A stretch of 62,383 nt of DNA from a virus, in the IMG/VR virus record IMGVR_UViG_3300014497_000010, positions 1 to 62,383 of that record; one strand, written 5' to 3'. A model generated the notes under the pieces. It had not been told where the DNA came from, searched no databases, and saw nothing but the letters and a program-made list of their open reading frames with translations. The position numbers were made by a program, and so were the translations under genes. This document shows, one piece after another, positions 5,203 to 34,205 of this stretch; within the stretch, counting starts at the first letter, position 1, and each line of letters opens with the position of its first letter.

Positions 5203-5454
5203 ATGGACTGGCGTCACCGTGCAATCTGCCGCGACGAGGACCCTGAGCTGTTCTTCCCGGTCGGCCACTCCGGCCCCGCCCTGCGCCAGATCGCCGAGGC
5301 GAAGTCGGTGTGTCGGCGCTGCCCCGTGGTCGGCGAGTGCCTCGCGTGGGCCCTGAACAGCGGCCAGGATCATGGCGTGTGGGGCGGCATGAGCGAGGAC
5401 GAGCGCCGCGCGCTCAAGCGCCGCCACGCCCGGACCCGGGCGGCACTGCGATGA
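5203..5454 (+). CDS. whiB: WhiB-like iron-sulfur transcription factor
   Basis: 83 residues with the full WhiB signature: C9, C37, C40 and C46 to hold a [4Fe-4S] cluster, the GVWGG turn at 58-62, and a basic C-terminal helix (RALKRRHARTR) for DNA contact. Phage WhiB proteins can bind the host primary sigma factor and alter host transcription; here that role is inferred from the family. It has its own promoter and a well-spaced GGAAGGGGG binding site, and overlaps the next gene as ATGA. Confidence 0.92.
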   Translation: MDWRHRAICRDEDPELFFPVGHSGPALRQIAEAKSVCRRCPVVGECLAWALNSGQDHGVWGGMSEDERRALKRRHARTRAALR

Positions 5455-6579: not shown

Positions 6580-7040
6580 GCGAGCTGCGGCGGGCGCGGC
6601 GCCGTCCGTGTGCGTCGTGCCCGTATCGGCGCGGTGTGCCGTCGGGGGTGTGGGCGGCCGACGAGTACGAGAAGCTGCCGCGGTATGACGTGGACACGGC
6701 GTATCAGCCGTGGCACGTGTTCGAGTGTCATCAGGGCGACGGTGCGATCTGTGCGGGGTGGCTGGCCTGTCACGGGCCCTACGACCTACTCGGGGTCCGG
6801 ATCGGTGTCGCGACCGGAACGGTCCATCCGTCGGTGACCGAGTTCAGTACCGACGTGGAGGTGTTCGGGTCGGGCGCCGAGGCTGCCGCGCACGGTGTCG
6901 CCGAGATCGACTGCCCGTCGCCCGAGGCGATCGACACGGTCTCGAAGATCCTGCGCCTGCGACCCGATGTCGTCGTGGACACGCTCAACCGATCAGGCTC
7001 TACCGGAAGTACAACTGATCGGGACCGGGCGGCCGAGTAG
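6576..7040 (+). CDS. DUF6283-type zinc-binding protein
   Basis: 154 residues. CASCPYRRGVPSGVW near the N terminus, then FECH, CAGWLACHG, and a C-terminal SGAEAAAHG...DCPSPEA stretch give the cysteine/histidine pattern I associate with the actinobacterial DUF6283 family. Function unknown. Two copies of the dispersed 10-mer lie inside (6690 and 6975) in different codon contexts. Confidence 0.7.
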   Translation: MSELRRARRRPCASCPYRRGVPSGVWAADEYEKLPRYDVDTAYQPWHVFECHQGDGAICAGWLACHGPYDLLGVRIGVATGTVHPSVTEFSTDVEVFGSGAEAAAHGVAEIDCPSPEAIDTVSKILRLRPDVVVDTLNRSGSTGSTTDRDRAAE

Positions 7041-7482
7041 GAGGCCCCCGGCGCCTGAGCGGCGCACCGGAGGCCCCCGGCCGGGGTGAGGTGGCCGGGG
7101 GCCTCCGTCGTTCACGAGTAGGCCGGTGGACCGGGACCCGCCAACCGTCCGGGTCGAGGCGAGACCGAACCGCAGATGCCGGGAAATACTCGCCGCCCCA
7201 TACTCCCTCCACCCGACGGTCAGGGTCTAGGGCGTAGAGCAGACACGGCGCCCGGACCGGGCAGCGCAGACACACCGCGCGAGCTTCGAGGATCCGCGCC
7301 CAATCACCGATGGTCATCTTCCCGCCGCCGGTGGCCTCCCAGCGCGCCGCGTGCTCGTTGAGTTCACCCGGGGACACGTCGGGCGGGGCCCGGCACGCGG
7401 GCGGTCGCGCCGGGTCGAGCATCCACGCCAGATCGCCCGCCTGGTCCACCAGGTGGTCAGTCCGGCGAACTTCCCTCCTCAT
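7000..7482 (-). CDS. WhiB-like protein (second copy)
   Basis: 160 residues with C30, C71, C74, C80 and GVWGG at 93-97, the WhiB cluster-binding pattern. After residue ~115 the sequence is Pro/Arg-rich and runs through the terminator hairpin, overlapping the end of the rightward gene 6576-7040 by 41 bp; the true C terminus may be functionally unimportant. ATG at 7482 overlaps the upstream stop (ATGA). Coupled to the zinc-ribbon/WhiB fusion 7479-8141. Confidence 0.75.
   Translation of the reverse strand: MRREVRRTDHLVDQAGDLAWMLDPARPPACRAPPDVSPGELNEHAARWEATGGGKMTIGDWARILEARAVCLRCPVRAPCLLYALDPDRRVEGVWGGEYFPASAVRSRLDPDGWRVPVHRPTRERRRPPATSPRPGASGAPLRRRGPPTRPPGPDQLYFR
7068..7107. terminator. bidirectional hairpin terminator
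   Basis: Perfect 15-bp stem (7068-7082/7093-7107) between convergent genes. It lies inside the 3' coding part of the leftward WhiB-like gene if that frame runs to 7000. Confidence 0.65.
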
Positions 7483-8141
7483 GCAACCGCGACCCCTTCA
7501 TCCGGCAGCGGCTCGCCGTCCTCGTCGAAACCGGCCCGCTGTAGCCCCGCGAGCAGACGGCGCCGGTCTTGCGCCGGTGTGTTCCGGGTGGGCCCCATCG
7601 CGCCGGTTTCCAGGTCGAGCCACGAAACGCGGGTGAACCACCACGCGCCCCACAGACCCTCATACCCCTGCGCACGCGCGGCATCACGACACTGCCACAT
7701 CACCGGGCAGCGCTGACAGATCCGCGCCGCGGTGAGCCGCCGCGATTCGAGGAACTCGGTTTGCTCCCACTTGCTCCGGCCGTGCGGCTCGTCCGGCATC
7801 GGGTCGGGGTCGAACACCTCGACCGGCCCGATCGAGCTACACAGCATCCGCGCAGGGTCGGCGCGCCACGACTCGTCAGCCTCGGGCAGCTCGACGGGCA
7901 GCCGCTCCGCGGAGCTGCCGCGGGACAACCGCGGGTCAAGCCCGGTCTCGACGATGTAGCGGTAACACGGTTTGCAGTGGCGCCCGTCGGCGGCGACTTC
8001 GAGCTGCCCGGCCTCGGCGCCGTGGCGCAGCCCGGTCCACACCTGCCGCAGACACTTCACGCACAACCCCGCCGACATAGGGATGATCTCGACGTCGTTG
8101 CCGGGTCGGAAGCGGGACCCGGTCCGCCCGGTGGTGCTCAC
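7479..8141 (-). CDS. zinc-ribbon/WhiB-like fusion protein
   Basis: 220 residues in two parts. Residues ~27-59 carry CVKC and CKPC, an N-terminal zinc ribbon. Residues ~101-166 carry C101, C142, C145, C151 and GLWGA, the WhiB iron-sulfur pattern with an unusually long gap between the first and second cysteine. GTG start at 8141 overlaps the upstream stop (GTGA). A WhiB domain joined to a zinc ribbon is an uncommon architecture. Confidence 0.7.
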   Translation of the reverse strand: MSTTGRTGSRFRPGNDVEIIPMSAGLCVKCLRQVWTGLRHGAEAGQLEVAADGRHCKPCYRYIVETGLDPRLSRGSSAERLPVELPEADESWRADPARMLCSSIGPVEVFDPDPMPDEPHGRSKWEQTEFLESRRLTAARICQRCPVMWQCRDAARAQGYEGLWGAWWFTRVSWLDLETGAMGPTRNTPAQDRRRLLAGLQRAGFDEDGEPLPDEGVAVA

Positions 8142-8353
8142 GCGCCCGCCTGCCGCGCCGCCCAACGCTCGAACACGGCGCGGGCGTAGGCGTAGCGGGC
8201 CGCGTCGAAACGCTCCGCAGCGGCCACGACAGCCGGGTCTGTGCGACACCGTAGGCAACACCCGCCGCGTTCGTCGCGGGTGTCGTGGCCGCACCCGGCG
8301 CGGCGCGGCCGATGCTGCGGAGACTCGATCAGGGTCGGGTTTACCGGTCTCAT
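8138..8353 (-). CDS. Cys-rich small protein, 71 aa
   Basis: CGHDTRDERGGCCLRC near the middle suggests a zinc site; the rest is helical. ATGA overlap with the upstream gene. No family name. Confidence 0.6.
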   Translation of the reverse strand: MRPVNPTLIESPQHRPRRAGCGHDTRDERGGCCLRCRTDPAVVAAAERFDAARYAYARAVFERWAARQAGA

Positions 8354-8742
8354 AGCAGCGTCAGCTCACCCTCGTCGGCCTGCCCGGTCGGCTCGGGCTG
8401 TTCCTGGCCGGGTGGCGGCGCCGGGCGCATCGAGACCGGGCCGCGGGCCCACCGGTCGGCTTGGGCGCACGACGTTCGGTGATGCACGTACAGCGGCCAG
8501 CCGCCGAGCAGCATCCGGCGCCGGTCCGCCTTGGTTCCCAGCACGTCGCAGACGAGCAGCCGGGGGCGGGTGTCGTCGCGGTAGACCAGGACGTTCCCGG
8601 TCGGGACGGGGGCCGCGTCGAGCGGCATCCGCTCGGTCCGTCCGCTCGCGTTCGTCCACGCCCACATGATCCGGGCGCGGCAGAAGTTGCAGGGGCGGGC
8701 GAACGCGTGCAGCAGGTCGAAGCGGTCCGGGATGCTAGGCAT
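8350..8742 (-). CDS. zinc-finger-like phage protein, 130 aa
   Basis: The CNFCRARIMWAWT...MPLDAAP arrangement near the N terminus is a recurring actinophage small-protein motif: two cysteines two residues apart, a Trp-containing strand, then PLD. A later Cys in RTSCAQAD may complete the zinc site. Start at 8742 overlaps the upstream stop region. Function unknown. Confidence 0.65.
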   Translation of the reverse strand: MPSIPDRFDLLHAFARPCNFCRARIMWAWTNASGRTERMPLDAAPVPTGNVLVYRDDTRPRLLVCDVLGTKADRRRMLLGGWPLYVHHRTSCAQADRWARGPVSMRPAPPPGQEQPEPTGQADEGELTLL

Positions 8743-9013
8743 CGGCGGGCATCGGGAGCAGGCGGAACACACCGTCGGGGTCGAGGACGACCGCGTCGGG
8801 GTCGAGCCACGACTGCCCGAACGGGTCGACGACGATCCGGGTCTCCCCCGGCGGCAAGATCGTCACCGCGGCGTAGGTGACCGGCTGGCCCTCGATGGCG
8901 CCGTACTTGACCGTGTCCACGTAGTAGAGGGTCTTTCCGAACCGGTCGGGACCCATCACCCGCAGCAGAAGATCCTCGCGCGGGATGGTCTTGCGGTACG
9001 TGAGCGTCCACAT
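8735..9013 (-). CDS. hypothetical protein, 92 aa
   Basis: Beta-rich protein. Start ATG 9013 with AGAAGG upstream and a leader with TCCCACCAC (complement of 9037-9045). A dispersed 10-mer lies at 8913. Family unknown. Confidence 0.6.
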   Translation of the reverse strand: MWTLTYRKTIPREDLLLRVMGPDRFGKTLYYVDTVKYGAIEGQPVTYAAVTILPPGETRIVVDPFGQSWLDPDAVVLDPDGVFRLLPMPADA

Positions 9014-9108: not shown

Positions 9109-9690
9109 GCCGGTGGGCTGCCCGTCGGGGGGCTGTCCGAGCGCGGCGATCCGGCGTGCCCGCTCGGCGTTCCAGCGTTGCCCGTCGGGGCATCCGCGGT
9201 TGCAGTCGAGCCCGGCGAGTGCCGGGCATCGCGGGTTGTGCTGTTCGGGGTGCGCGTCGGCCTGGTCGGGGCCGACGTCGCCGATCTCGTCGGCGATGGT
9301 GAGCTGCCGCGGCCAGAGCCACCGGCCGGTGATGGCGTGCCCGCCGACGGTCGGCTCGCTCTGTGTGAACTGGTCGAGGAACGCCGGTCGCCACGCGTCG
9401 TCAGGCGGGGCGAGAAGATCCGCGACATAGTCGCGGGAGAGCCACCCGCGGCGTGCTCGACGACCCGCGGCGTGCTCGTCGCGGAGGACGTCTGCGACCG
9501 CGCCGAGCGCGTCGGCGAGGCGCTGTGCCGCGCCGGTGGCGCCGCGGAAAGCCGCCCTGATGTCACCGCCGGTCCGGTGTATCCGCTCGAAGATCTCAGC
9601 GAGGTCGCGGGCCGCGTCGTCGGCCTGATCGAAGGCGCTGATCGCGCGAAGGTCGCGGCTCGTTTCGCAGCGGTGGTCGTGCTGGTCCAT
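9106..9690 (-). CDS. hypothetical protein with Cys cluster, 194 aa
   Basis: Helical N-terminal two thirds; residues ~155-170 contain CPALAGLDCNRGCPDG, a tight three-cysteine cluster. ATG at 9690 has a consensus AGGAGG ribosome binding site. Stop codon is the first TAA of the 12-bp tandem repeats. No family recognised. Belongs to the leftward operon with the PLP decarboxylase. Confidence 0.65.
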   Translation of the reverse strand: MDQHDHRCETSRDLRAISAFDQADDAARDLAEIFERIHRTGGDIRAAFRGATGAAQRLADALGAVADVLRDEHAAGRRARRGWLSRDYVADLLAPPDDAWRPAFLDQFTQSEPTVGGHAITGRWLWPRQLTIADEIGDVGPDQADAHPEQHNPRCPALAGLDCNRGCPDGQRWNAERARRIAALGQPPDGQPTG

Positions 9691-9715: not shown

Positions 9716-9974
9716 GGGTCGCGTCGTGCGGGGCGGGCGTGTCGGCCGGGGGTGGTTGGGCGGCTCGGGCGTACGGGGCGATCAGCGCCGGGCCGAGCCC
9801 GCCGGTGGGGCCGTCGACGGTCATGGAGCCGATACCGGGCATGAGCACCGACAGGATGATCACCAGCGAGCCGGAGATCAACATACGGGTCGGGGTGATC
9901 AACGGGCCGCGGTGAACTCGGGCGTGTCGGCCGTAGCCGGTGACCCACCCGCGCCGGTGCCGCCCGACCATCAC
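9716..9974 (-). other. possible small membrane protein frame without a stop
   Basis: A GTG at 9974 overlaps the stop of the decarboxylase gene as GTGA, the standard gene joint here, and opens a frame with a clear transmembrane segment (MLISGSLVIILSVLMPGIG). The frame has no stop before the next gene and stays open far beyond it. A one-base shift would end it at the TGA near 9716, 26 bases before the next ATG. Either a sequence error/frameshift removed the stop, or this is chance coding. Otherwise 9691-9970 holds only the next gene's ribosome binding site. Confidence 0.35.
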
Positions 9975-11194
9975 CGAACCCGGTACCGCTGGCGTGTCTC
10001 GTGGGGCCGGACCGCGGACGGGTTGCGGCCCAGCGGGCGGCCGGTGTCGATCACCCGCATCCGGGCGTGCGCGCGGGCGGCCGACGCGGACATGTCGGCG
10101 ACGAACTCGTTCAGCACGTCCTCGTCGATACCCGGGACACACACGACGTGCGCGATCCCGTTGCCCACCGCGAGCCCGTAGCGCACCACCAGGTGATCCG
10201 ACGGCGCCGGGAAGTAGACGGTGAGGCTGTCGGGGCGGCGCCGCGCGGAAACTCCGCCGGTCCGCAGCCGACCGTGCAGCCATCGCGCCGTGCGACGGCA
10301 GCGCTGCGCGAGCTGATGCAGCGCGGCGTCGTCGAGGGTGTCCAGCGCGAGCCACGCCTGCACGACCATGTGCCCGCTACGGGAACACGACGAGGTCGCA
10401 AGCCGCGAGTGCAGGTAGGAAACCGGTCGGCGCAGCATCTCGATCAGCTCACCGTCGGCGAGCAGGATCCCGCCGGGATCGGGGGTGCCGAGGAACTTCG
10501 CGGTCGACAGGTTGATCGAACGCGCGCCGCGGGGTCCCATCCGGATCGAGCGGTACCCGCGGGAGCGGCTCACCGCGATCGGCAGGCCCGACAGCGCGGC
10601 GTCGACGTGGACGTAGCGGCGCACGTCGAGCGCGTCGAGCACCTCATGGATGCCGGGCACGTCGTCGATGGCCTCGGTCATCGTGGTACCCGCCGTGGCG
10701 AGGACCGTGGCCGGTCGGGTCGGGTCCACCTTGCGGGCGAGGTCGTCGAGATCCATCGTCCCGTCCCGGTGGGTGGCGACCACGACACTGGGCAGGGCGA
10801 GGTCGTCGATCGCCGCCGGGACGGCCATGTGCGCGGCGGTCGAGTAGTAGGTGATCGCGTCGGGCAGGGCCAGGCGCGAGCACTTCAGCCCGCGCCCGAT
10901 GGCTTCGCTGCTGCCGGAGCCGATCAGTCCCTGCCAGCCGGGCGGGGCGCCGAACCACCCGGCGACCCGGTCGAGCACCTCGCGCTCGAAGGGGCGGGCG
11001 TGCGGGGAGAAGCCGCGGTCGTCGGGGTCCCACGGGTGACCGACGTTGTTGATCACATACCGGTGTGTCCGGTCGGTCCGTGACCAGTCGATCAGCTCGT
11101 CGGTTCGGGCGCACGGGTAGCCGATGGTCCACCGGGCGCGCTCGTCGGAGTGGCGCGCGAACGCGTCGAGCCGCGCGGCGGTCGCGGCGCCCAT
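9971..11194 (-). CDS. histidine decarboxylase-like PLP-dependent enzyme
   Basis: 407 residues with the landmarks of the group II PLP decarboxylases, closest by eye to bacterial histidine decarboxylase. GSGSSEAIG (93-100) corresponds to the GGTEGN phosphate loop, H122 to the His that stacks on PLP, AGTTMTEAIDD (168-178) to the GTT...IDD segment, D198 in HVDAALSG to the Asp that holds the pyridine nitrogen, and K233 in SINLSTAKFLGTPDP to the Schiff-base Lys. That stretch fits the S-x6-K family signature, although HK is replaced by AK. It would release CO2 from an amino acid such as histidine; the true substrate is unknown. Start ATG 11194 overlaps the upstream stop (TGATG). Very unusual in a phage. 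Confidence 0.85.
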   Translation of the reverse strand: MGAATAARLDAFARHSDERARWTIGYPCARTDELIDWSRTDRTHRYVINNVGHPWDPDDRGFSPHARPFEREVLDRVAGWFGAPPGWQGLIGSGSSEAIGRGLKCSRLALPDAITYYSTAAHMAVPAAIDDLALPSVVVATHRDGTMDLDDLARKVDPTRPATVLATAGTTMTEAIDDVPGIHEVLDALDVRRYVHVDAALSGLPIAVSRSRGYRSIRMGPRGARSINLSTAKFLGTPDPGGILLADGELIEMLRRPVSYLHSRLATSSCSRSGHMVVQAWLALDTLDDAALHQLAQRCRRTARWLHGRLRTGGVSARRRPDSLTVYFPAPSDHLVVRYGLAVGNGIAHVVCVPGIDEDVLNEFVADMSASAARAHARMRVIDTGRPLGRNPSAVRPHETRQRYRVR

Positions 11195-11814
11195 CAGCGG
11201 CCCCCCATGGTGTCGCTCTGCGGCGAGGGCTGCGCGTCGCCGAGTTCGGAGCCGTAGGCGGCGTCCAGGTCGACGGGCCGCACGGCCGACGGGTTGCGGT
11301 GCAGCGGGCCCATGCCTTCCTGCGCGTCCATGTCGCCGTCGGGGTCGTCGCCGAGATCGACGCGCTCGGCGGTGCCGCGCATCCGCTTGTCGTAGGGGCC
11401 CAGCGCGGTCCGCAGATCGGTCGACTGCCGGGCCGGGACGTAGCAGGGGCCGTCGATGCGGTGCACGGTGCCGAGGGTGTTCGGTCGCCCGCACATGCAC
11501 GCCGGAGCCGAGTCGGCGGGCGCTCCCTCGGGCGGTGGGGAGCCGAGCCGACGCCCGGCGTGATCACGCTGGACCCGCGGGATCAGTGATCGGTTCATCT
11601 TGGTCAGGACCCCGGCGTCGTCGAGCATCGCCAGCAGGTCCACGCCGATCTCGGTGAGCCGCCAGCGGGCGCTGTCGGTCATGGTGTCCCACTGTCCGAC
11701 GGCGAGCGCGGACCGGTCGGGGTTGGCCGGGTCGCGGATGAGGTTGCCGATCGAGGCGATCCAGCGGCCGACGAGCTGCGGGGTGATCACGGTCCGGGCG
11801 TCCGGTCGCGTCAT
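11194..11814 (-). CDS. hypothetical protein sharing a motif with the decarboxylase
   Basis: 206 residues. N-terminal ~85 residues are helical; a CMCGRPN...GPCY segment may bind zinc; the C-terminal half is acidic and Gly-rich. Near residue 178 it contains PLHRNPSAVRP, almost identical to PLGRNPSAVRP near the end of the neighbouring decarboxylase. ATG at 11814 overlaps the stop of the small membrane gene as ATGA. Family unknown. Confidence 0.65.
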   Translation of the reverse strand: MTRPDARTVITPQLVGRWIASIGNLIRDPANPDRSALAVGQWDTMTDSARWRLTEIGVDLLAMLDDAGVLTKMNRSLIPRVQRDHAGRRLGSPPPEGAPADSAPACMCGRPNTLGTVHRIDGPCYVPARQSTDLRTALGPYDKRMRGTAERVDLGDDPDGDMDAQEGMGPLHRNPSAVRPVDLDAAYGSELGDAQPSPQSDTMGGR

Positions 11815-11954
11815 GATCGAATCTCCTTCGTCGTCGTCTTCGTCGTGTCCACGGTGGACTCGCGGCGTTCGGGGCGGCGGAGCAGCCGGATCGCGATCCC
11901 GACCAGGCACGCCGCGGCGCTGACCGCGAGCAGGCCGTAGCCGATGACGTTCAC
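11811..11954 (-). CDS. single-pass membrane microprotein, 47 aa
   Basis: Short gene with overlaps on both sides: GTG at 11954 overlaps the upstream stop (GTGA), and its own stop overlaps the next ATG (ATGA). It reads as one transmembrane helix (VIGYGLLAVSAAACLVGIAI), then a basic, Thr/Lys-rich cytoplasmic tail. A dispersed 10-mer (11845) encodes part of the tail. Tight coupling on both sides supports a real gene. Confidence 0.7.
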   Translation of the reverse strand: MNVIGYGLLAVSAAACLVGIAIRLLRRPERRESTVDTTKTTTKEIRS

Positions 11955-12566: not shown

Positions 12567-13865
12567 TCACCCGACCGGTAGCCGACCCCAGTAGGCGGCG
12601 GTCGGCGCCCACGGCAGCCGATCCGGACCGCCGTGGCGCAGCTCGGTCGGCCACGCCCGATCCTCCCGCGACCCGCGCCAGCGGCGCACCTGCACCCACG
12701 CCGGGTGCTCCTCGGTCGGGTCCGCATCCGGATGCCGGACGATGCCAAGCCCGAACTCCGGCCACCGCAGGAACACGCTCGACCCGATCGGCCGGGTCGA
12801 GCGGAGCTGCCCGCTCTGCGCGTGCCCCGCGTGGTGCTCCGCGACCAGCGCGCAATCGTGCTTGATCCGGATCCGGTCGAGGGTCTGAAGCAACTTCAGC
12901 GCCCCCTCCTCCTCGTGGGTGTTCCACCCGGTGAGCTTGTACAGCGGACCGGCCACGACCAGGTCCGGAGCGGCGCTGGAACACTCCGCGTCCAGGCGAG
13001 CGAACTCGGCCGGGCGACCGAGGTCAACCCCGTCGGGCCGGATGATGACCTTCACGGCTTCGCGCCAGTCGACGGGCCCGAGTCCGTGCCCCCGGCGGAT
13101 GTGATCGACGATCGCGGCCATCCGGCCCAGTCGCCGCCGGAGTTGCTTGCGGGTGTTCTCGACGTCGACGATGAGCACTCGCTGCGTGGCGCCACCGGGC
13201 CGGATCGGGTCGCCGGTGAACGGGTGGATTCCGCCCGCGATGCCGAGCGCGAGCTGCGCGACGAAGACCGACTTGCCGGTGCCCTCGAACCCCGACAAGA
13301 TCAACCGGTCGCCGCGTTCCAGCAGGCCCGGGACGACGAAGTCCTCCGGCAGCTCAGGCTCGCACACAAGATCCGCCAGCGGGGTCGCCGCCATCGACCC
13401 GTCCGGCGTGCGAACCGCGCCGTCGAGCGCCTCGCGAGCCTGCGACACGACCGCGTCGACCTGGTCGCGGTCCACGTCGGCGTAGCCGAGCTGAGCGATC
13501 CGGGTCCCCGCCTCGACCAGGCGGCGCATCGTCGCCTTCTCCGAAACGATCTCGGCGTAGTACGCGGCGTTAGCCGCGGTCGGCACCTGCGCAATCAACG
13601 TGTGCAGGTACGGGGCCCCGCCGATCCGGCCCAGCTCGCCGCGCCGCTGCAACTCGGCCGCGACGGTCACCGGGTCCGACGGCTCGCCCCGCCGCTGAAG
13701 ATCCACGACGGCCTCGAAGACGAGCGCGTGCGCCGGGCGGTAGAAGTCACCCGCCCCGATGATCGCCACGACCTCGGCGACCGCCGCGGGCGAGAGCAGC
13801 ATCCCGCCCAGCGTGGACATCTCGGCGGCCGGGTCCTGCGGCGGGAGCCGCTCGTAGTCGCTCAT
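12567..13865 (-). CDS. DnaB-like replicative helicase
   Basis: 432 residues. Residues ~1-110 match the DnaB N-terminal domain. The C-terminal RecA-type ATPase has Walker A GFEGTGKS at 192-199, Walker B RVLIVDVEN, then AEHHAGH and a GSSVFLRWPEFG segment, a layout nearer to RepA/AAA_25-type helicases than to cellular DnaB. It would unwind the fork at the phage origin, loaded by the initiator encoded just upstream. ATGA overlap with 13862-14146. No primase or polymerase is seen, so host enzymes are presumably used. Confidence 0.85.
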   Translation of the reverse strand: MSDYERLPPQDPAAEMSTLGGMLLSPAAVAEVVAIIGAGDFYRPAHALVFEAVVDLQRRGEPSDPVTVAAELQRRGELGRIGGAPYLHTLIAQVPTAANAAYYAEIVSEKATMRRLVEAGTRIAQLGYADVDRDQVDAVVSQAREALDGAVRTPDGSMAATPLADLVCEPELPEDFVVPGLLERGDRLILSGFEGTGKSVFVAQLALGIAGGIHPFTGDPIRPGGATQRVLIVDVENTRKQLRRRLGRMAAIVDHIRRGHGLGPVDWREAVKVIIRPDGVDLGRPAEFARLDAECSSAAPDLVVAGPLYKLTGWNTHEEEGALKLLQTLDRIRIKHDCALVAEHHAGHAQSGQLRSTRPIGSSVFLRWPEFGLGIVRHPDADPTEEHPAWVQVRRWRGSREDRAWPTELRHGGPDRLPWAPTAAYWGRLPVG

Positions 13866-14173: not shown

Positions 14174-15082
14174 TTAGCCGTGGTCCATCAGGCCCGTGTC
14201 GCGTCGTCGCACCTCGTCGAGCCATCGTTCATCGTTCAGCCATGAGGCGGGGTGAGCGATCTTGTCCTCGGGCCGCTGTTCGGCGCGCATCTGCATCGCG
14301 AACCGACGAGCGCCAGCGAGCAGCGTCGACTCGTCGGTCTTCTTCCGAGCGGCCCTGTACGCGGCCCGAGCACGAGCGACAGCCACGTGTCGCGGGTACG
14401 AGCTGTACCACTCGCGGAAGCCGGGCGGATCATCCGGATGAGGTCGCGCAGCCCTTCCGCGGACGATGGAATCGTCCAGAGTAGTTAACTGCTCTTCTCT
14501 TCTCTTCTCTCTAGAGTCGACTCCCCCGGGGAGTCCGAGCGGGAGTTCATCGGGGAGTCCGGTGGCGAGTCCCCCGGGGACGTCGGCGGGGTGTCCGTTG
14601 AGGCGTCCGTCGGGGAGTCCCCCGGGGACGTCGGCGGGGACTCCGGTAGGGACATCTGCCGGATGCCCTCCGCCCGGACCGTCGTCGTCAGGCGGGGAGT
14701 CCGGCGGGGACGGCCTCGACGCCTTCGCCGCACGCGCCCTACGCTTCTGCGCGGCGTCACGCTCGCGCGCTGCTTCGAGGTCTGCTTTGGACTCCTGCAC
14801 GTCGAGCCAATCGTGCAGGATCCACCCTCTCTCGCCGCCGACCGTCGCGGGCTCGAAGTACTCGGCTTTGACAAGCCACGGGATCAAGACTCCGTCGGGG
14901 TCGAACCGTTCGGTTTCCTCGGCCGGGATGAATCCGTCGGACTCGTTCTCTGCGGCCCAGCACGCGGCGAACCACCACGCGCCCATCGCAGCCGTCCGCA
15001 GCGGCACCTCGGCCCGATCGCGGGGGATAAGGCGCGTCTTCCGGTGGGACGCCATCTTCGATTCGACCTTGAACCACAGCAC
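14174..15082 (-). CDS. replication initiator-like protein
   Basis: 302 residues. The start LWFKVESKMASHRKT and the following AWWFAACWAAENESDGFIP are typical of phage replication initiators with an N-terminal winged-helix domain. Residues ~130-205 are a Pro/Gly/Asp repeat linker (PADVPGGL units). The C-terminal ~95 residues (FREWYSSYPRHVAVARARAAYRAAR onward, interrupted here) resemble a DnaA/initiator C-terminal helical domain. GTG at 15082 follows the HTH gene's stop by two bases. Repeats in the linker may be the origin itself, as in lambda O. Confidence 0.7.
   Translation of the reverse strand: MLWFKVESKMASHRKTRLIPRDRAEVPLRTAAMGAWWFAACWAAENESDGFIPAEETERFDPDGVLIPWLVKAEYFEPATVGGERGWILHDWLDVQESKADLEAARERDAAQKRRARAAKASRPSPPDSPPDDDGPGGGHPADVPTGVPADVPGGLPDGRLNGHPADVPGGLATGLPDELPLGLPGGVDSREKRREEQLTTLDDSIVRGRAARPHPDDPPGFREWYSSYPRHVAVARARAAYRAARKKTDESTLLAGARRFAMQMRAEQRPEDKIAHPASWLNDERWLDEVRRRDTGLMDHG
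14528..14702. repeat. direct repeats in the initiator gene (candidate origin)
   Basis: GGGGAGTCC occurs at 14528, 14552, 14612 and 14694. A longer 25-bp unit repeats exactly at 14567-14591 and 14615-14639. Immediately to the left, 14477-14520 is AT/pyrimidine-rich (a CTTCT tract and TAGTTAACT), unlike the rest of this GC-rich region. Confidence 0.55.
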
Positions 15083-15084
15083 GG

Positions 15085-15342
15085 TCAGACCGCCTCGGGC
15101 GTCGTCGTCGAGCACGGGTCAGCCTGCCCTTCCGGTTCCCGATCGGCAGCGGCAGCGGCGAACTGCGCCTCGATCCACGCCTCGACGTCACCGCGGCGGA
15201 ACATGACCCGGCGACCGATCCGCGCGCCGGACGGACCGAGGCCGTCGACGCGCCAGTTTCGCAGGGTCGCCACGGGGATCCGGAGCCGCTCCGCGACCTC
15301 CTCATATGTCATCAGATCGTGCTCAGTCACGTCAGGTAGCAT
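15085..15342 (-). CDS. excisionase/MerR-type HTH protein
   Basis: 85 residues. MTYEEVAERLRIPVATLRNW is a helix-turn-helix followed by an RIGRRVMFRRGDVEAWIE wing and helix, the HTH_17 pattern of phage excisionases and AlpA-like regulators. Start placed at ATG 15342; the internal ATG at MTYEEV is possible. With no integrase in the window it may be a transcription regulator. It heads the initiator gene and has a hairpin plus CCCACCAC leader. Confidence 0.75.
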   Translation of the reverse strand: MLPDVTEHDLMTYEEVAERLRIPVATLRNWRVDGLGPSGARIGRRVMFRRGDVEAWIEAQFAAAAADREPEGQADPCSTTTPEAV

Positions 15343-32649: not shown

Positions 32650-33498
32650 TTAGGTCTTGACCCGGCCGAAGGTGAATGATCCCCAGTAGGGGCGGACGGT
32701 GACGTCGTTGAGTGTGTCTGACGCGTCGGCGATCATGCCCGGCGCCACCACGATCATGACGTGACCGGGGTAGAACGCGAGATCACCGGGCCGCTCGGAT
32801 CCGGCCGGGACCGGTGTCGCCCACGCCTTCAGCTCGCCAGAGCTGCGGTAGGGCACCGACAGGCCGGACCGCTTGAGGACCTCCCAGACCAGGCCGGAGC
32901 AGTCGAGCCCGGTCGCGACCTTGCCACCCCAGACGTAGGGGATCCGCTTGCCCCCCGCCAGTGCCGCGGCGTTGGACGCGATCCGGCCGCCGACCCCGCC
33001 CGCGGCGGGCGCGGCCGGGATGCTCGCTCGCGCCGCCGGGGTGGTCGGGAGCTTCGGCGCGAGCCGGGTCGGCGTGGACACCGCCGCCTGCGGCCGGGCC
33101 GCAGGGGTCGGCCGCGGGGCCGCGAACCGTTCGGGCGTGGACACGGTCCGACCCGGTGCCGCTGTGCGGGCCGCTGCCCGTGGCGCGACCGGCGCGGCAG
33201 GAGCCGGTACCGGGTCCGCAACACGCCGGGCCGCGGCGGTCGAGACGACCGCCGCGGTCGGTGCGCTCGGCGCCGGGGTCGACGGCAGCGACAGCGCAGC
33301 CTGTGGCGGGACGGGCGTGTCGGTCGAGCTGGGCCCAACCATGTCCGCGACCGCCGAGCCGATGGGTATGGGGGACTGCACGGCGGCGGTGCCGACCGTC
33401 AGGGCGGCGGCCAGCGCCGCGCCGCGCAGAAGTTGGGTAGGAAGCGGTGCCGAAGTCACTGCCGACATCAGCCCGGCCCGCCGGTGTCGGCCGCCCAT
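32650..33498 (-). CDS. secreted NlpC/P60 endopeptidase (RipA-like)
   Basis: 282 residues. N-terminal hydrophobic signal segment (about 20-45), then a long Ala/Pro-rich linker, then an NlpC/P60 domain: YVWGG, C200 in DCSGLVW, RPGDLAFYPGHV with H246. The domain resembles actinobacterial RipA-type D,L-endopeptidases that separate daughter cells. Export should place it in the host wall without a holin. TGATG overlap with the Rpf-like gene. Confidence 0.85.
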   Translation of the reverse strand: MGGRHRRAGLMSAVTSAPLPTQLLRGAALAAALTVGTAAVQSPIPIGSAVADMVGPSSTDTPVPPQAALSLPSTPAPSAPTAAVVSTAAARRVADPVPAPAAPVAPRAAARTAAPGRTVSTPERFAAPRPTPAARPQAAVSTPTRLAPKLPTTPAARASIPAAPAAGGVGGRIASNAAALAGGKRIPYVWGGKVATGLDCSGLVWEVLKRSGLSVPYRSSGELKAWATPVPAGSERPGDLAFYPGHVMIVVAPGMIADASDTLNDVTVRPYWGSFTFGRVKT

Positions 33499-34205
33499 CA
33501 GGACAACCTATTTCCGACGTAGATCATGTGCGGGTTATCGACACCATTCGCGGCGGCGAGCGCCCGGTAGCCGCCGGGCACGTGCCACTGCGCGGCGAGC
33601 TTGCCGAGGGTGTCGCCGTGGCGGATGACGTAGCCGTCGGGGACCTGCGGCAGGCCACGGCCGGTCGCAACCTTGCCCGTCGGCGCCTTGACCGTGGCGG
33701 CGGCGCGCTGCGTGTGCGCCTTCGGCTCGCCGGGAATCGCCGTCGCCTTAGTCGGCTTCGCGGCCTTCGACGTTACCGCCTTGGGCGCGCTCGTCCCGGC
33801 GAGGCTCATCGAGCCCTTCCGGGCGCCCGACCAGCAGTGCTGGGACGAGGACCAGTCGGCGAGCGAACCGCGCGCGGCGGCGATCCGCTTCGCGACGACG
33901 AGCTGCTCAGACGGGCTCGCCTGCATCGCGGTCGGGGCGAACTGTGTGCCGCCTGCGCCCTTCCACGTGCCGTTCGTGATCTGAAACAGACCGCTGGCCG
34001 TGTTCACGCTTGGCACGATCTTGGTGTGGATGTTCTGCCCGCCGGACTCACACATGGCGATTGCGCCCCAGTCGGCGGTCGGCTCGGCGGCCGACGCGGG
34101 GAGCGCGGAGGCGAGCGGCGCCGCGAGGGCAAGGCCTGCGATGACGGCGGCCCGCGCGCCGGTACGTGGACGCGCGGGCGCCCGGTGGCGACCGTGGTAG
34201 GTCAT
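33498..34205 (-). CDS. secreted Rpf-like transglycosylase with LysM
   Basis: 235 residues. Signal peptide with a cleavage site near ASA-AEP (about residue 40). Residues ~44-125 are a resuscitation-promoting-factor domain: ADWGAIAMCESGGQN with catalytic E53, ASGLFQITNGTWKG, and C52/C124 as the conserved disulfide. A Lys/Ala/Pro linker leads to a C-terminal LysM (YVIRHGDTLGKLAAQWHV). It should cleave peptidoglycan outside the membrane. Leader has two TCCCACCAC copies. Confidence 0.9.
   Translation of the reverse strand: MTYHGRHRAPARPRTGARAAVIAGLALAAPLASALPASAAEPTADWGAIAMCESGGQNIHTKIVPSVNTASGLFQITNGTWKGAGGTQFAPTAMQASPSEQLVVAKRIAAARGSLADWSSSQHCWSGARKGSMSLAGTSAPKAVTSKAAKPTKATAIPGEPKAHTQRAAATVKAPTGKVATGRGLPQVPDGYVIRHGDTLGKLAAQWHVPGGYRALAAANGVDNPHMIYVGNRLS

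Follow-up and report, generated by a model that had tools for sequence, protein, structure and literature searches.

A phage-borne member of the histidine/serine decarboxylase subfamily that lacks an otherwise universal histidine

The stretch of viral DNA considered here (62,383 nucleotides, called the window throughout) carries, in a tight block of minus-strand genes downstream of its replication genes, an intact reading frame of 407 codons that begins with the ATG at 11194 and ends with the TGA at 9973–9971 (Table 1). The stops and starts of this gene, of the gene upstream and of the small ORF before that overlap one another (TGATG, ATGA), so that translation of the PLP gene is probably coupled to that of its upstream neighbor. 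A reading made from the letters alone (the sequence-only reading) had placed the gene in an operon with membrane, zinc-ribbon and WhiB-like proteins, and most of that picture stands: two WhiB-domain genes and a single-TM ORF of 47 codons are there, and so are small Cys-rich proteins, although these last have no match to a curated family. The 194-aa downstream gene has no match among annotated phages. A third WhiB-like gene lies on the opposite strand (window 5203–5454, +) and matches phage WhiB families more strongly than the two operon-side genes do; the replication initiation gene contains a 12-nt periodic repeat (window 14520–14652). One further candidate, a small TM gene starting from an ATG at 9971, is doubtful, its frame running without a stop until 8361. 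Finally, a 40-nt direct repeat, its two copies identical at 83%, gives the peptide RNPSAVRP to the tails of two adjacent and otherwise unrelated proteins, and this repeat may be the mark of a gene insertion, or it may be a shared tail.

Table 1. Features of the PLP gene and its surroundings, in window positions
Feature	Position	Strand	Evidence or remark
WhiB-domain protein	7000..7482	-	Domain match
WhiB-domain protein	7479..8294	-	Domain match
140-aa ORF with Cys pairs	8350..8772	-	Matches phrog_5984 (unknown function)
Downstream gene, 194 aa	9106..9690	-	Start at 9690 behind a GGAGG site; weak PHROGs match only (E 0.0034)
Group II (fold type I) PLP-dependent decarboxylase, HisDC/SerDC subfamily, 407 aa	9971..11194	-	ORF list, profile and PDB matches, alignment
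40-nt direct repeat, copy 1	9999..10038	.	Encodes RNPSAVRP in the PLP-enzyme tail
Codon of L265, catalytic loop	10400..10402	-	Asp in 24/26 subfamily relatives (alignment)
Codon of Y260, conserved catalytic-loop Tyr	10415..10417	-	CsAlaDC Y336, proton donor (PMC11407765)
Codon of K233, Schiff-base lysine	10496..10498	-	Aligned with CsAlaDC K309
Codon (GCG) of A232	10499..10501	-	His in all 55 relatives compared; CsAlaDC H308 (alignment; PMC11407765)
Codon of A127	10814..10816	-	Lys/Arg in 26/26 subfamily relatives; CsAlaDC K201 (alignment)
Codon of C28, substrate-specificity position	11111..11113	-	AtSerDC Y111, CsAlaDC F106, HisDC Glu
TGATG junction	11192..11196	-	Upstream-gene stop overlaps PLP-gene start (sequence)
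Upstream gene, 206 aa, Cys-containing	11194..11814	-	No family match; has the PLP enzyme's RNPSAVRP in its C-terminal part
40-nt direct repeat, copy 2	11270..11309	.	Close to where the upstream gene ends (3')
47-aa single-TM ORF	11811..11954	-	ATGA overlap into the 206-aa gene starting at 11814
DnaB-like replicative helicase	12567..13865	-	Upstream, same strand block
Replication initiation protein	14174..15115	-	

The record encodes terminase, portal, major head, tape-measure and major tail proteins, as well as an exonuclease VIII-like nuclease and an excisionase-like protein; it is a true tailed-phage genome, and the PLP gene is a genuine phage gene. Relatives of the terminase come from actinobacteriophages, the closest (∼50% identical) lying in Mycobacteroides prophages, and the host is a high-GC bacterium, probably an actinomycete. 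The first 25 kb of the window have no DNA-level relative among annotated phages. The record is possibly a fragment, and every statement of absence made here is limited accordingly. The PLP gene has a codon score of 0.515, compared with 0.42–0.53 for most phage core genes (one core outlier scores 0.09), and a GC3 of 0.92 vs. 0.90; it therefore looks like an old, maintained resident rather than a recent import. Elsewhere in the window, the phage encodes a protein with an Rpf-like transglycosylase domain and LysM (33498–34205; PF06737, PF01476) and a membrane protein of the YdjM family (1693–2337; PF04307).

By its database matches, the enzyme is a member of the HisDC/SerDC subfamily. Residues 4–371 match the NCBIfam histidine decarboxylase family PRK02769 (NF002748; E 1.1e-64, 218.5 bits), the Pfam family Pyridoxal_deC is matched above its cut-off (31.6 vs. 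27 bits), and phmmer searches of the PDB return AlaDC/SerDC (8jij/8jg7) at ∼1e-41 and HisDC (7eru/7erv) at ∼1e-38, the nearest solved structures being those of plant SerDC/AlaDC (8jg7, 8jij/8jik) and Photobacterium HisDC (7eru/7erv). The sequence-only reading, which had seen a histidine-decarboxylase-like enzyme in this frame, was right at the level of the family. The PRK02769 score, however, lies below the curated equivalog cut-off of 305 bits, so that the protein is a member of the subfamily without certification as a histidine decarboxylase. An AlphaFold model built from an eight-sequence alignment was poor (mean pLDDT 48), and the Foldseek ranking derived from it, with SerDC, AlaDC and HisDC at the top, carries no weight.

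How much of the catalytic machinery is there? We placed the numbering of CsAlaDC on an alignment of 27 sequences (the query and 26 subfamily members) and took the roles of residues from PMC11407765. Kept in the phage enzyme are E70, E97, H122, G169, T171, D177, H196, D198, A200, S226, S230, K233, Y260, S271 and R272. In this mapping, H122 and A200 stack on the ring, T171 serves O3 and D198 serves N1, K233 forms the Schiff base, Y260 is the proton donor of the loop, and S271 contacts the phosphate from the partner subunit. The PLP-site set of K233, D198, H122, A200 and T171 is complete, and H122, D198 and K233, like the segments quoted with them in the sequence-only reading, sit where that reading had put them in the translation and the alignment. 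Of the 13 residues that PMC11407765 gives as conserved, 11 are present; the two that have changed, K201 and P286, are both Ala here, and Ala also takes the place of P286 in actinobacterial relatives. As judged from the alignment, every reaction-critical residue is retained: H122, T171, D177, H196, D198, A200, S226, S230, K233, the catalytic tyrosine Y260, S271 and R272.

The altered positions are another matter. The replacement of His by Ala just before the Schiff-base lysine, already pointed out from the sequence, is real and more exceptional than had been claimed: His stands there in 26 of 26 other subfamily members and in 29 of 29 further relatives, these being remote fold-type-I sequences of group II or class V drawn from sampled genomes. 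We rejected a sequencing error because GCG is three substitutions away from CAC, which makes a misread implausible. In CsAlaDC, the corresponding H308 is a ligand of the PLP phosphate (PMC11407765); the position is absent from the 13 conserved residues of that study, and we have therefore treated A232 as a variant feature and no disqualification. S95 in the phosphate loop is altered as well, and Ser occurs at this position in some actinobacterial relatives. The losses of His at 232, of Lys/Arg at 127 and of Asp at 265 count against an active enzyme, and activity is accordingly not assured.

Might the protein, then, be a weak PLP binder or catalytically dead, kept for some other role or decaying? 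The loss of the universal His along with Lys/Arg at 127 would fit such a history, as would a long branch in the tree; an open frame of this length with phage-like codon usage argues against it, and the conservation of all chemistry-critical residues is not expected of a decaying gene, so that we consider this rather unlikely. A different proposal is that the fold now supports changed PLP chemistry, namely decarboxylation-dependent oxidative deamination or another lyase or transfer reaction. Three near-invariant positions have been altered together around a PLP core that was kept, and SDC-like plant enzymes did evolve into acetaldehyde synthases (PMC4177580); Y260, however, is still in place, and mutation of this Tyr inactivates SerDC/AlaDC (PMC11407765). 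We judge a change of reaction unlikely. Unlikely too, though slightly less so, is a broader idea: losing the phosphate-ligand His together with two further near-invariant residues would have given the enzyme a novel range of substrates or a novel PLP reaction, with which the phage would alter the amino-acid or amine pools of its actinomycete host during infection.

If the enzyme works as a decarboxylase, what would its substrate be? In the plant enzymes, preference for Ser or Ala is set by the Y111/F106 residue (PMC11407765). At the aligned position, the phage enzyme has Cys (C28), each of the four HisDC rows (gammaproteobacterial/PDB) has Glu, AtSerDC and a Rhizobium row have Tyr, most actinobacterial rows have Gly, and the IMG/VR phage rows have Val. 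Because C28 stands where the HisDC rows carry Glu, histidine is an unlikely substrate, and some other amino acid is probably used; since the residue is Cys, an uncharged one is favored. A true histidine decarboxylase, making histamine during infection, would agree with the best curated family and with the annotation of the nearest plasmid relatives as histidine decarboxylase. Names in this subfamily, however, are often untested in the databases, with plant “HDC” sequences likely to be serine decarboxylases (PMC4177580), and the missed equivalog cut-off, the Cys at the specificity position and a tree that separates the phage enzyme from the gammaproteobacterial HisDC clade all point the other way. 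We find this reading improbable, and the earlier suggestion of histamine production gains no support.

The sequence-only reading also held that PLP decarboxylases are rare in phages, and for the HisDC/SerDC subfamily this is so. Just 2 of 50,697 annotated phage records (INPHARED) have a match, and both were rejected as an acinetobactin-type siderophore cluster on an Acinetobacter chromosomal contig labeled phage, which leaves no genuine phage with a relative among those records. (The two entries, CAKLQF020000018.1 and CAKLQH020000016.1, are filed as “Acinetobacter phage MD-2021a” and are probably mislabeled chromosomal contigs holding a bacterial siderophore gene cluster.) Three scans of IMG/VR found HisDC-like matches in 8 of 2.9 million contigs; these are large, AT-rich phage contigs with RecA-like, DnaB and sugar-nucleotide genes close by. 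In two of them (L018 8001–10955 and L022 8001–11263), the decarboxylase gene lies near an ornithine cyclodeaminase gene, and in L018 and L019 only, near one for proline dehydrogenase, an apparent module of amino-acid metabolism. When contigs of IMG/VR and GTDB were scanned with the protein as the sole query, no close relative of the PLP enzyme came up; the GTDB scan gave two remote matches (26%), and Listeria “phage” fragments (25%) came up only with a marine query, from unannotated records. Plasmid records gave 129 matches, all below 60% identity, the best actinobacterial ones at ∼32–37%. Searches of the open literature turned up nothing relevant on phage HisDC or on PLP decarboxylases as accessory genes.

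In the tree, the phage enzyme is grouped with actinobacterial rows (95/99). Its branch is very long (2.61), which makes its exact placement unsure, and it lies apart from the clade formed by the other phages of IMG/VR (100/99), which suggests that the two were separate acquisitions. On the best reading, the gene would be an old acquisition whose source lay in the actinobacterial branch of the subfamily that unites bacterial HisDC and plant SerDC.

Putting the pieces together, we think it probable on balance that the gene, a phage gene of old actinobacterial origin, encodes an active PLP-dependent L-amino-acid α-decarboxylase that makes a primary amine from an amino acid other than histidine. 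The activity, the amine product and the part played in infection are what we infer; the analysis itself establishes the family, the intact pocket, the overlapping starts and stops, the phage context, the codon match and the unusual residues. PLP would form a Schiff base with K233 and be stacked between H122 and A200, its N1 held by D198 and its O3 by T171; the substrate would displace the lysine and release CO2, and Y260, from a loop of the partner subunit, would protonate the quinonoid and free the amine. Loss of the phosphate-ligand His would be expected to lower PLP affinity or to shift loop closure and not to abolish the chemistry. In infection, the gene could serve as an accessory (moron-type) metabolic gene, coexpressed with the genes downstream of the replication block. 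Against this stands the neighborhood itself, in which no gene indicates a pathway for the enzyme.

Two other roles had been raised. PLP-dependent enzymes are found in the DNA hypermodification cassettes of phages M6 and SN1 (PMC9476957), and the present one could conceivably belong to a pathway like that of Pseudomonas phage M6. The M6-like cassette, however, also holds a pyrimidine hydroxymethylase, a nucleotide kinase, rSAM and aGPT-Pplases (PMC9476957), and the record, possibly incomplete, has no match to the thymidylate-synthase family (PF00303) or to radical SAM (PF04055), both of which were found in control genomes. With the companion hydroxymethylase and radical-SAM families not found, alteration of DNA is disfavored, and we hold it to be very improbable. 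(A search of the window for HMUDK_hel was empty, and its control genomes were equally without a match.) As for defense or anti-defense, PADLOC gave no match for the PLP enzyme or the neighbors tested, and there is no support either way.

Hardly any amino-acid decarboxylases of this subfamily are known from phages, and none of the collections searched yielded a close relative of this one. If the enzyme works, actinobacteriophages would have another way to rewire the amino-acid or amine metabolism of their hosts, and the His that precedes the PLP lysine, which all other fold-type-I relatives in the comparison have, would be dispensable.

With the bacterial histidine decarboxylases (PRK02769; Photobacterium phosphoreum HDC, 7eru/7erv), the phage enzyme has in common its length, fold family, PLP-binding core, catalytic Tyr and Ser-Arg loop motif; it differs from them in A232 for His, A127 for Lys, L265 for Asp and C28 for Glu, as well as in its sub-cut-off score. 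The plant enzymes AtSerDC (8jg7) and CsAlaDC (8jij/8jik) are its best sequence matches in the PDB and share all of its core catalytic residues, whereas the phage enzyme has Cys for Tyr/Phe at the specificity residue, has lost the phosphate-ligand His and falls in a separate clade. Another group is that of the actinobacterial HisDC-annotated relatives on Streptomyces and Micromonospora plasmids (L005, L008–L012, L024–L027, L031), which lie on the same side of the tree at the identities given above and in some cases have the same Ser-Ser-Glu variant of the phosphate loop; unlike the phage enzyme, all of them keep His-Lys, and several adjoin genes for transporters, ATP-grasp proteins or DUF6875 proteins, neighbors not observed around the phage gene. 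The HisDC-like genes of the large IMG/VR phages (L017–L022, L032, L035) are likewise phage-borne and of the same subfamily, but they form their own clade, have ∼32% identity, keep SGHK intact and sit in a different context, among sugar-nucleotide, proline dehydrogenase and ornithine cyclodeaminase genes. The fold and the family, in other words, are already known; what is new is a phage-borne member without the otherwise universal His.
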